A stretch of DNA of 64,000 bases from Idiomarina sp. Its GTDB lineage: Bacteria; Pseudomonadota; Gammaproteobacteria; Enterobacterales; Alteromonadaceae. The notes beneath the pieces are model-generated. The model did no database searches and was not told the origin of the DNA. It saw nothing but the letters and a program-made list of their open reading frames with translations. A program made the position numbers and the translations under genes. The stretch spans positions 124,001-188,000 of the forward strand of contig JAFIFP010000007.1 in assembly GCA_020831965.1 (NCBI GenBank). Direction: 5' to 3'. Below are positions 36,318 through 39,901 of the stretch, piece by piece. Every line of letters begins with the position of its first letter. Positions within the stretch are counted from its first letter, which is position 1.

Positions 36318-37208
36318 TCAGATAATGAAAAGTAAAGTGATACCCGCCATTGCGACCAATGTTCCACTGAGTGCTCTAAAGCTGACTCGTCGGCCACGAA
36401 AGACATTTAAACCGAGCATAAAGAGTGGAGCGGTAGACAAAAGTGTTTGTGCGACGCCCGGTGTGACATAAGCCACAGCAACTTGTTGCAGCCAAATTGC
36501 TAAGAATGTCCCTAATACGATAGCGAGAAATAGCGGGGCTATTTGAGTTTTTCTGAGGGCTTCCCGCGTTGCTAGAAGTAATCGCGGTCGCAGTATAAGC
36601 AAACCGATCGTTAATGCTGCGGTGCCACCCATAAGTCGAACAAGAGCAGCTTCGATGGGGGCTATTGTTGCTGCCTGAAATGCCGAGAAAGCCATGACCA
36701 AACCAACGGCCTGACAGAGCGCCGCAGCGATACCGAATAAATAACCACTTCGGTTGGGGCGATAGGTTGTATCTAGCTGTTTCTCCGTTAATACCGCAAC
36801 GACACCAGCAATAACGACGAAAGCTGCAATTACTTGCAGTAATGAAAGACGTTCGGAGAGCACTAGCCATGCGATCGCGGCAGCGAGAGGTGGAGCGAGA
36901 TACTCAAGTAATATGGTATGACCGGGACCGAGTCGACGGAGCGCCGCAAAGTAACAGCTATCACCGAGTGTGATTCCAATGATCCCACTCAATGTCAGGA
37001 TAACTAGAGTGTTGGTCGTGGTGCCTGCCCAATCAATAGTGGGTAATAGGAGTGTGGCGAGAAAGAGCAGTGGGCAGGCGACAAGGCCTTTCACTAAGTT
37101 TAATTGTACCGAACTTAAATGATGGCTGCTGCGGCTGTACATGAGCGTCGCTAATGCCCAGAAGAATGCTGCAAGCAGCGCAGCAAATTGACCAAGATAA
37201 AGACTCAT
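36318..37208 (-). CDS. DMT-superfamily (EamA) transporter
   Basis: A 296-residue inner-membrane protein with ten hydrophobic helices in two EamA halves (about 1-140 and 150-296), the typical layout of drug/metabolite transporters. The half-boundary motif LEYLAPPLAAAIAWLVLSERL closes the first repeat and LLSTAPLFMLGLNVFRGRRVS the second. Substrates of this subgroup include amino acids and metabolites, usually exported; none can be assigned. It is divergent from thrS over a 213-base gap. Confidence 0.88.
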   Translation of the reverse strand: MSLYLGQFAALLAAFFWALATLMYSRSSHHLSSVQLNLVKGLVACPLLFLATLLLPTIDWAGTTTNTLVILTLSGIIGITLGDSCYFAALRRLGPGHTILLEYLAPPLAAAIAWLVLSERLSLLQVIAAFVVIAGVVAVLTEKQLDTTYRPNRSGYLFGIAAALCQAVGLVMAFSAFQAATIAPIEAALVRLMGGTAALTIGLLILRPRLLLATREALRKTQIAPLFLAIVLGTFLAIWLQQVAVAYVTPGVAQTLLSTAPLFMLGLNVFRGRRVSFRALSGTLVAMAGITLLFII

Positions 37209-37375
37209 GGGTGACTTACTAAATAGGTTTAAAGGGAGAATACCTGCTCACCTTGCTGAAGGGTAGTTCAGATTGCACCGAACCTGCTTATTCGCTATAG
37301 TTGCGGCTTATTTTGTGGGTTGCTTTTGCATGTCTTTTCAAATTTAAGGAATGCGGGCAGCTTGGAGTCATACAA

Positions 37376-37396
37376 GTGACACTTGGTGGGTGTCAC
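37376..37396 (+). promoter_or_regulatory. thrS translational operator: tRNA-Thr anticodon-arm mimic
   Basis: A perfect 7-base stem GTGACAC/GTGTCAC closes a 7-base loop TTGGTGG. Numbered as a tRNA anticodon loop, this puts U at 33 and GGU at 34-36, the anticodon of tRNA-Thr(GGU); the first five loop bases UUGGU equal those of that tRNA. It lies 25 bases before the thrS ATG and 10 before its ribosome site TAGGAA (37407-37412). In E. coli, threonyl-tRNA synthetase binds a similar hairpin in its own mRNA leader and blocks ribosomes. Confidence 0.78.
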
Positions 37397-37421
37397 CACT
37401 GTAAAATAGGAACAAGAATCC

Positions 37422-39338
37422 ATGCCAGTAATTACCCTTCCTGACGGCAGCCAGCGTGAGTTTGCCAACCCTGTTTCAGTTCTCGATGTTGCCGCGGATA
37501 TTGGCCCAGGACTCGCGAAAGCGACCCTTGCCGGGCGCGTGAATGGCACGCTTGTTGATGCATGTGAACTGATTGAGCACGACGCATCCTTAGAAATTAT
37601 TACGCCTAAGAATGACGAAGGCCTCGAGATTATCCGTCATTCCTGTGCTCACTTGTTGGGTCATGCCATCAAGCAACTGTGGCCAGAAACCCGTATGGCT
37701 ATTGGTCCTGTGATTGATAATGGTTTCTATTATGACGTGGATGTCGACCGCCCCATAAGCCAAGACGACTTGAATGCGATTGAAGCGCGCATGAAAGAGT
37801 TGGCAAAAACTGGCTATGAGGTTGTCAAAAAGAAAGTCAGTTGGGAAGAGGCTCGCGAAGTCTTTGTGCAGCGCGGCGAAACCTACAAGATTGAAATTCT
37901 TGATGAGAACGTGGCCCGTGATGATCGTCCCGGCCTTTACCATCATGAAGAATACATTGATATGTGCCGCGGCCCACATGTACCAAATATGAGTTTTTGC
38001 CAGCATTTCAAAGTGATGAAAGTGGCAGGTGCGTATTGGCGTGGTAACAGCGACAACAAGATGTTGCAGCGCATTTATGGAACCGCTTGGGCGGACAAAA
38101 AGCAACTCAAAGCCTATTTGCAACGCTTGGAAGAAGCTGAAAAGCGTGACCATCGGAAGATCGGTAAGTCGCAAGACCTGTTCCATTGGCAGGAGGAAGC
38201 TCCGGGAATGGTGTTCTGGCATCACAATGGCTGGACGGTTTTCCAAGAGCTTGAAAAGTATATACGCGAAAAATTGAACGAGTATGACTATCAAGAAGTG
38301 AAAGGCCCACTGATGATGGACCGTGTGCTTTGGGAAAAATCAGGGCACTGGGAGAAATTCTCGGAACTGATGTTCACAACTTCGTCAGAGAATCGCGAGT
38401 ATGCAGTTAAACCGATGAACTGTCCGGGACACGTTCAAATCTTTAATCAAGGTTTGAAGTCTTACCGTGACTTGCCTTTGCGTATGGCCGAGTTTGGTTG
38501 TTGCCATCGCAATGAGCCTTCTGGTGCGTTACACGGGTTAATGCGTGTACGCGGCTTTACGCAAGACGATGCTCACGTGTTCTGCACCGAAGATCAGGTT
38601 CAGGAAGAAGTCGCGAGCTGTATTCGTATGGTGTACGAAACATACGCCACTTTCGGGTTTAATGAAGTTGTAGTAAAGCTGTCAACGCGCCCTGAAAAAC
38701 GTCTCGGTGACGATGCAATGTGGGATCGCTCTGAAGCTGCTTTAGCCGAAGCGTTGAAAGCGAATAATATCGAGTTCGAATATTTGCCGGGTGAGGGCGC
38801 GTTCTATGGTCCGAAGATTGAGTTCACCTTACATGACTGTATTGGTCGAGCTTGGCAATGCGGAACTATTCAGCTTGATTTTGCATTGCCGAAGCGTTTA
38901 GGCGCGAGTTACGTAGGTGAAGACAATGAACGCCATGTGCCGGTGATGATTCACCGCGCAATTTTGGGTTCACTTGAGCGCTTCATGGGAATTTTGATTG
39001 AAGAATATGCTGGATTTTTCCCAGCTTGGCTGTCGCCAAATCAGGTTGTCATCATGAATATTACCGACAATCAGGCCGAATATGCGAAAAAACTGGTCTC
39101 AGAACTGAAAAATCAAGGTTTTCGCGCGACAGCTGACTTGAGAAATGAGAAGATAGGCTTTAAAATTCGCGAGCACACGCTTAAGCGCGTGCCGTACTTG
39201 TTAGTTGTTGGTGATCAAGAAGTAGAACAACAACAAGTTGCCGTACGAACTCGTCGCGGAGAAGATCTCGGCAAGTTAGCAGTTGCCGACTTTGTTGAGA
39301 AACTGAAAAATGAAGTGCGCGAGCGTACGATTTCTTAA
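37422..39338 (+). CDS. thrS: Threonyl-tRNA synthetase
   Basis: Charges tRNA-Thr and edits mischarged serine. The 638-residue protein has an N-terminal TGS domain ([14 protein letters not shown]), an editing domain with [10 protein letters not shown] (residues about 73-82) and a class II catalytic core with [10 protein letters not shown] (zinc Cys), [18 protein letters not shown] and [13 protein letters not shown], then the anticodon-binding domain. It opens the thrS-infC-rpmI-rplT-pheST-ihfA block. A leader hairpin that mimics tRNA-Thr suggests autogenous translational repression. Confidence 0.98.
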
Positions 39339-39358
39339 ATTTGCTGGAGGAAGAAACC

Positions 39359-39901
39359 ATTAAAGGTGGAAGAAAAGGCCAAAAGGTCGACAAAACACGG
39401 ATTAATGATGCCATTACTGCACCAGAAGTGCGGTTGATTGATGCAGAAGGTGAACAGGTCGGTGTGACGGGGCTCAGTGAAGCTCTAGAACTCGCAGTAG
39501 AAGCGGGGCTTGATCTGGTAGAGATCAGTCCAAACGCGGAACCGCCAGTTTGCCGTATCATGGATTATGGTAAGTTTCTTTACGAAAAAAGTAAGCAGCA
39601 GAAAGAACAGAAGAAGAAACAAAAACAGATTCAGGTTAAGGAAGTTAAATTCCGACCTGGCACTGATGAGGGCGATTACCAGGTAAAACTGCGCAACCTG
39701 CGTCGCTTTCTTGAGGGTGGTGATAAAGCAAAAGTCACCGTGCGTTTCCGTGGCCGGGAAATGGCACACCAAGAGCTTGGGATTCAACTTCTAGAGCGTA
39801 TTAAAGCGGATCTAGACGAAGTTTCACAATGCGAAGCGTTCCCTCGTCGGGCTGAAGGGCGTCAGATGGTAATGGTTCTGGCCCCGGAAAGTAAGAAGTA
39901 G
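39359..39901 (+). CDS. infC: Translation initiation factor IF-3 (AUU start)
   Basis: Binds the 30S subunit, prevents premature 50S joining and proofreads start codons. I place the start at ATT 39359: it lies 8 bases after GGAGG (39346-39350), gives the 180-residue length of E. coli IF3, and its beginning ([10 protein letters not shown]) aligns with E. coli MKGGKRVQ. A TTG at 39341 is in frame but sits before the ribosome site. Later landmarks are [37 protein letters not shown] and the Lys-rich linker. The rare AUU start underlies autoregulation by IF3 in E. coli, probably also here. Confidence 0.93.

Follow-up and report, generated by a model that had tools for sequence, protein, structure and literature searches.

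In the window, that is, the whole 64,000-nucleotide stretch of DNA analysed, thrS, the gene for threonyl-tRNA synthetase (ThrRS), is separated from a divergent gene (36318-37208, minus strand) by an intergenic stretch of 213 nt, and this stretch carries a hairpin that ends 25 nt before the thrS ATG (Table 1). The initial annotation had described a perfect 7-base stem closing a 7-base loop, UUGGUGG, at 37376-37396, placed 10 bases before the ribosome site. The sequence matches this exactly, with all seven upper-stem pairs Watson-Crick and ten bases (37397-37406) between the hairpin and a Shine-Dalgarno-like TAGGAA. A promoter scan of the window found no -35/-10 pair up to its threshold; the TATAGT box is a candidate, and a box like it was seen by eye in most of the relatives shown. 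Beyond thrS, in the stretch 39341-39361, infC probably starts at the ATT at 39359-39361, behind GGAGGAA, rather than at the upstream TTG given in the list of open reading frames; infC of E. coli likewise starts at ATT.

Table 1. Features of the thrS leader in the window (all on the forward strand).
Feature	Position	Strand	Basis or remark
Candidate -10 box TATAGT	37296..37301	+	By eye; leader would begin at about 37308
Lower stem, 5' side UACA	37371..37374	+	Followed by 1-nt internal loop at 37375
Upper stem-loop	37376..37396	+	Stem 37376-37382 / 37390-37396, loop 37383-37389 UUGGUGG
Stem 5' arm GTGACAC	37376-37382	+	Sequence
Loop TTGGTGG	37383-37389	+	Sequence; equivalent of G35-U36 at 37386-37387
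Stem 3' arm GTGTCAC	37390-37396	+	Sequence
3-nt internal loop CAC	37397-37399	+	Fold of 37-mer; conserved CACUG lies within 37397-37403
Lower stem, 3' side UGUA	37400-37403	+	Fold of 37-mer; lower-stem pairs covary
Shine-Dalgarno-like TAGGAA	37407..37412	+	Sequence
thrS, threonyl-tRNA synthetase, presumed repressor	37422..39338	+	Open reading frame and ThrRS alignment

Perfect hairpins with a 7-bp stem and a 7-nt loop occur at 6 places in the window, against a mean of 4.4 in 20 shuffles, and, with both strands considered, only the one at thrS has GU as the fourth and fifth bases of its loop. When the 213-nt intergenic stretch was shuffled 5000 times, the share with such a GU-loop hairpin was 0.0006. 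The folding energy of the 121-nt leader is ordinary (z +0.27 against shuffles) and that of the 37-nt element reaches only z -1.8, so the case for the hairpin rests on comparison and not on energy. An operator of the E. coli type has a two-part ribosome site, with an unstructured, U-rich part upstream of the hairpin. In the window, the 73 nt on the 5' side of the hairpin contain U-rich runs, yet their fold has z -1.8; the start of the transcript is a prediction. In silico, two U-G pairs close the loop of the window to a triloop, and the E. coli piece shows no such closure.

Conservation of the leader hairpin and its place at thrS

Searches of the family and the order yielded 273 genomes with thrS; leaders were taken from 177 of these, chosen by hand, and one E. 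coli leader brought the set to 178. An earlier count had required GU in the loop and could not test GU; it was replaced by a count in which CACTG alone served as the anchor, with loop and stem ignored in placing. CACTG is present in 157 of the 178 leaders, and also in 78 of 80 named loci drawn from the genome collection; 153 of the 157 have G35-U36 in the loop. Two of the four exceptions (L093 and L101) carry one extra base that shifts the frame, with UUGGU still there; another (L166) has the wrong anchor and a good hairpin elsewhere in its leader, and only in the leader of L168 was no such hairpin found. Standard pairs are made by 1042 of the 1099 upper-stem cells of the anchored leaders, and 23 of the 57 failing cells are A-C at the fourth pair. 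U33 is not fixed (131 of 157; 59 of 78 named).

Similarly, the loop has G-U in all 78 anchored leaders of the named set (Vibrio, Shewanella, Haemophilus, Cellvibrio and Natronospirillum are among its members), and 8 named leaders are identical over 150 nt to others outside that set (for example L220 = L009 and L222 = L014). The two named leaders that lack CACTG (L291 and L294) offer only weaker candidates, selected for GU, with 6 of 7 pairs. Within the window's family, L112 has thrS and a leader without such a hairpin; the 20 other leaders among the 178 that lack the CACUG anchor belong nearly all to distant families. A likely counterpart in another context, without CACTG, was noticed in family f7 (L176, L180, L164 and L173), where L176 and L180 have, by eye, the 8-nt loop GTTGGTAA. 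The spread of the element may therefore exceed what the model described below shows.

Covariation was assessed in an alignment of 104 rows, hand-picked from 132 for pairing and GU; doubtful or wrong hairpins (L093, L160, L167, L169 and L174) and near-duplicates were dropped. For each of the seven pairs of the upper stem there are leaders in which both bases have changed. Double changes fill 201 cells of the whole 13-pair structure, where shuffles give 78 (none of 500 was as high), and the covariation score is 0.461 against 0.205 when shuffled and at most 0.169 with one strand slid. The inner three pairs of the lower stem form in 92-99% of the 104 leaders and the fourth in 42%. The checks that the initial annotation had suggested in related genera thus came out in its favour as regards covariation, found at all seven pairs, and the presence of the hairpin in close relatives, L112 being an exception within the family. 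Of the GGU loop, whose conservation it had also proposed to check, G35-U36 is conserved and position 34 varies.

The fourth upper-stem pair (37379/37393 in the window) is G-U in 72, A-C in 23 and G-C in 2 of the 157 leaders. Exactly one pair of the stem is not Watson-Crick in 105 of the 157; the window and 13 other leaders have none. A wobble shape or a tuned stability of the upper stem may be under selection.

A covariance model built from the 104 rows has one match in the window's genome, at thrS (E 4.9e-11, 51.6 bits). The next, at E 1.4 and 4.7 (L300 and L301), look like chance. In the order, 148 genomes gave 110 matches in 109 genomes at E up to 0.01, and 108 of the 110 lie at most 60 nt upstream of thrS; many of these genomes contributed rows to the model, and their matches do not count as independent evidence. 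One of the remaining two fits a thrS whose listed match misses the first 177 codons, and the other lies away from thrS (E 0.007, G257). In the class, where the genomes are outside the model rows save the window's own and G001, 229 genomes gave 78 matches in 76 genomes at E up to 0.1 under strict filters. Of these matches, 68 are upstream of thrS, 5 are elsewhere, and 5 have a thrS row that was unlisted; three of the last five were read and all three precede thrS. One of the matches away from thrS is strong (E 5.9e-7, G510) and four are weak (E 0.018 to 0.097; G331, G395, G320 and a second match in G341). The element is thus almost confined to thrS.

The strong match in G510 (L325 1501-1538; C8:71088-71125, minus strand) is a perfect hairpin, GCGCCAC-TTTGTAT-GTGGCGC, which lies between what look from their open reading frames like cas3 and csy1 of a type I-F CRISPR locus, near two units resembling CRISPR repeats. 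It is possibly a mimic of the threonine anticodon at a CRISPR locus, or else chance.

No Rfam family matched in the window at the gathering score. A search with E up to 1 at four loci (L060 of E. coli, L001 of the window, L054 and L005) found nothing at the hairpin; its four matches are all in L054, far downstream of thrS. As no family matched the operator of E. coli itself, absence from Rfam is uninformative. About 1.3 kb after thrS, at 4669-4790 of L054, Rfam recognizes Phe_leader, the phenylalanine attenuator, with 84 bits; in the window this family did not reach the gathering score.

Likeness to the E. coli operator and variation at position 34

At the equivalent place E. coli thrS has GTGATCT-TTCGTGT-GGGTCAC, followed by CACTG. 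This hairpin, domain 2 of the operator, and that of the window both stand before thrS, with an upper stem of 7 bp, a 7-nt loop with N-G-U at positions 34-36, a 1x3 internal loop, a lower stem, CACUG and a downstream Shine-Dalgarno sequence. The 37-mers of the two fold to one plan, with a lower stem of 4-5 bp, the 1x3 internal loop and the upper stem. They differ at position 34 (G in the window, C in E. coli), in the upper stem, which is all Watson-Crick in the window whereas domain 2 has two U-G pairs, and in the letters of the lower stem. The initial annotation had recognized a leader hairpin of the E. coli design, and place, plan and CACUG flank all agree with this. It had also given the E. 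coli operator a CGU-like triplet; the loop there is UUCGUGU. T-box leaders, which occur for instance at Bacillus thrS, also control an aminoacyl-tRNA synthetase gene through its leader. However, they pair with uncharged tRNA by a codon-like triplet, whereas the RNA of the thrS operator imitates the anticodon.

Residues 1-637 of the window ThrRS align without gaps to E. coli ThrRS (1qf6; 1176 bits), and N575, R583, E600 and R609 (E. coli numbering), which we take to be anticodon contacts of the E. coli enzyme, are identical. The entry 1kog, presumably the complex of ThrRS with operator RNA, is listed with the same enzyme. The best named match is ThrRS of Aliidiomarina halalkaliphila (87% identical), which suggests that the window's genus is Aliidiomarina, in a collection that may leave out very near records.

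According to four papers, the E. coli operator contains two ThrRS-bound hairpins, domains 2 and 4, that resemble the anticodon arm of tRNA-Thr; repression consists in keeping the 30S subunit off, tRNA-Thr competes, and changing the triplet to that of methionine brings the gene under MetRS control (PMC11088916, PMC7373986, PMC9976931, PMC3858243). The hairpin of the window is real and in all likelihood functional. From its orthologous place and form, its covariation, its specificity for thrS and the gapless alignment of ThrRS, we conclude with considerable confidence that it is the ThrRS-binding counterpart of domain 2 in the thrS mRNA of an Aliidiomarina-like gammaproteobacterium, and that ThrRS very probably shuts off its own synthesis through it. 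We weighed against this the lack of a detected second arm in the window, the ordinary energy of the leader, the loss in L112 and the limitation of class matches to 76 of 229 genomes. By analogy with E. coli, when ThrRS is in excess of tRNA-Thr, the anticodon-binding domain of the spare enzyme would take G-U of the loop for tRNA positions 35-36, and position 34 of the mimic would play no part in recognition. The bound enzyme would keep the 30S subunit from the ribosome site 10 nt downstream, so that thrS translation would fall, and plentiful tRNA-Thr would compete the enzyme away.

Lying just before a Shine-Dalgarno sequence, much as the E. coli hairpin interrupts a two-part ribosome site (PMC3858243), the hairpin might instead tune ribosome-site access or mRNA stability without binding ThrRS. 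We consider this improbable, because an element with a structural role alone has no need of an invariant G-U in a loop whose stem varies, and it would not be almost confined to thrS. We give hardly any credence to a transcription terminator or attenuator: an inverted repeat does stand ahead of the gene, but the hairpin is absent from the list of the terminator scan, and as a terminator it is ruled out by the sequence that follows (CACTGTAAAATAGG), which has no U tract.

It has also to be considered that the loop copies one particular tRNA-Thr, that with GGU, so that control would depend on how much of this isoacceptor is charged or available, as the initial annotation had suggested in proposing that the mimicry follows different isoacceptors. 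Indeed, UUGGU is, as that annotation had noted, the same as in tRNA-Thr(GGU): the anticodon loop of the genome's own tRNA, TTGGTAA, agrees with the hairpin at positions 32-36 and differs at 37-38 (AA, with GG in the hairpin). Furthermore, the genome, which is about 98% complete, has tRNA-Thr(GGU) and tRNA-Thr(UGU), and examination of all its 47 tRNA matches showed no tRNA-Thr with CGU. However, with G35-U36 fixed, all four bases occur at position 34: G, C, A and U in 92, 40, 16 and 5 of 153 leaders, in 34, 38, 3 and 3 of 78 in the named set, and in 57, 16, 14 and 5 of 94 in the window's family (2 misplaced), so that CGU loops are found even there. Moreover, a mimic that followed isoacceptors would need a tRNA-Thr(AGU) wherever its loop has AGU. 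Of the 16 leaders with such a loop, the genomes of 8 were checked, by BLAST with both tRNA-Thr genes, ARAGORN on 35 of 60 loci and a scan of some of the weak hits; in all 8, every tRNA-Thr gene detected was GGU or UGU. Position 34 of the loop thus matches a detected tRNA-Thr gene in the window's genome and in none of these eight, and a mimicry that follows isoacceptors fails. ThrRS, furthermore, is not known to read anticodon bases other than G35 and U36, the identity bases in E. coli; the section of a review that bears on this says that the anticodon nucleotides count and is no more specific. We therefore regard control by one isoacceptor as very unlikely.

The simplest reading of these sequences is that ThrRS reads G35-U36 and that position 34 of the mimic goes unread. 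GGU and CGU are just the versions of the loop that occur most often, and the GGU of the window would be ordinary drift at an unread position. Studies of E. coli have already established the main part of this picture. Possible novelties are how widely the element occurs, the natural evidence for an unread position 34 and the candidate one-armed operator of the window's genus. Among the titles and abstract openings surveyed we found none of these points, nor any report of conservation of the operator beyond E. coli; two classic papers lie outside this survey, and we claim no priority. The tRNA-mimic switch that textbooks describe for E. coli thrS is thus widespread in the order and recurs in the class, and natural variation, with G35-U36 fixed and position 34 free, helps to tell which bases ThrRS reads.

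A second arm upstream of the hairpin

Second arms were sought upstream of the hairpin in 227 non-redundant leaders, out of 241, as stems of at least 6 pairs that lack a U tract. A count against plain shuffles (81 of 241 at no more than 2 of 100 shuffles) was inflated by the terminators of upstream genes and was replaced by a test that compares all 16 dinucleotides and leaves out hairpins with U tracts. Among entries whose loop has 7 nt, 25 of 46 carry GU at positions 4-5; for 8-nt loops it is found at positions 5-6 in 19 of 54, against a background share of 6%. Because relatives share arms, the entries are not independent. GU was also found in 5 of 22 candidates with 9-nt loops, and 6-nt loops gave no excess (3 of 43). 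Under the strict rule, a GU arm whose loop has 7 or 8 nt is present in 44 of the 227 leaders, and chance may account for some of these.

The arm of E. coli (L060), corresponding to domain 4, was found by the strict rule as ATTTAGC-ATTTGTTG-GCTAGAT. The second GU arm recurs in the order, including Idiomarina, where all 6 leaders (5 distinct) have one, for example GCGTTCG-ATGGTAC-CGAACGC, equalled by no more than 2 of 300 shuffles. It stands just after the last TATAGT-like box in 5 of the 6 and after an earlier box in L013. By contrast, the strict criterion that recovers these arms found none in the window, and a relaxed search of three Aliidiomarina leaders, that of the window (L001), L004 and L219, gave best candidates matched by 64, 285 and 77 of 300 shuffles. 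Two further Aliidiomarina leaders, L005 and L006, have candidates for which the relaxed search gave 10 and 15 equally good shuffles of 300; for L006 a stricter one gave none of 100. The candidate of L005 lies upstream of the predicted -10 box and that of L006 runs across it, so both would be outside the transcript if the predicted box is right. In Pseudidiomarina (6 leaders, 5 distinct) no convincing arm was found; the best candidate (L007, 13 of 300) overlaps the box, and the TATAGT-like box, a candidate that starts only 26-29 nt before the main hairpin, would leave no room for a second arm.

The window may have a degenerate second arm. A hairpin at 37303-37323 (GCGGCUU-AUUUUGU-GGGUUGC), terminator-like in the scan, was considered as a decayed arm and rejected: its pairs are mostly U-G, its GU is misplaced in the loop, and no like hairpin was seen in the leaders of congeners (by eye, in single folds).

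In our judgement it could equally well be right or wrong that Aliidiomarina, as in the window, and Pseudidiomarina have a one-armed thrS operator, the other arm having been lost, and that the dimeric ThrRS represses through the single arm. More widely, the operator would be a gammaproteobacterial device of long standing in which G35-U36 alone is read and the second arm has been gained, moved or lost several times. Close genera that differ in having one arm or two form a natural experiment on whether the dimeric synthetase needs both for repression.

Finally, in family f15 (L054, L041, L121 and L059) an arm, CGCCC-TTGGTTT-GGGTG, was noticed about 50 nt upstream of the hairpin. It lies inside a longer self-complementary stretch with the ends GTCAG ... 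CTGAC, which could form a three-way junction.
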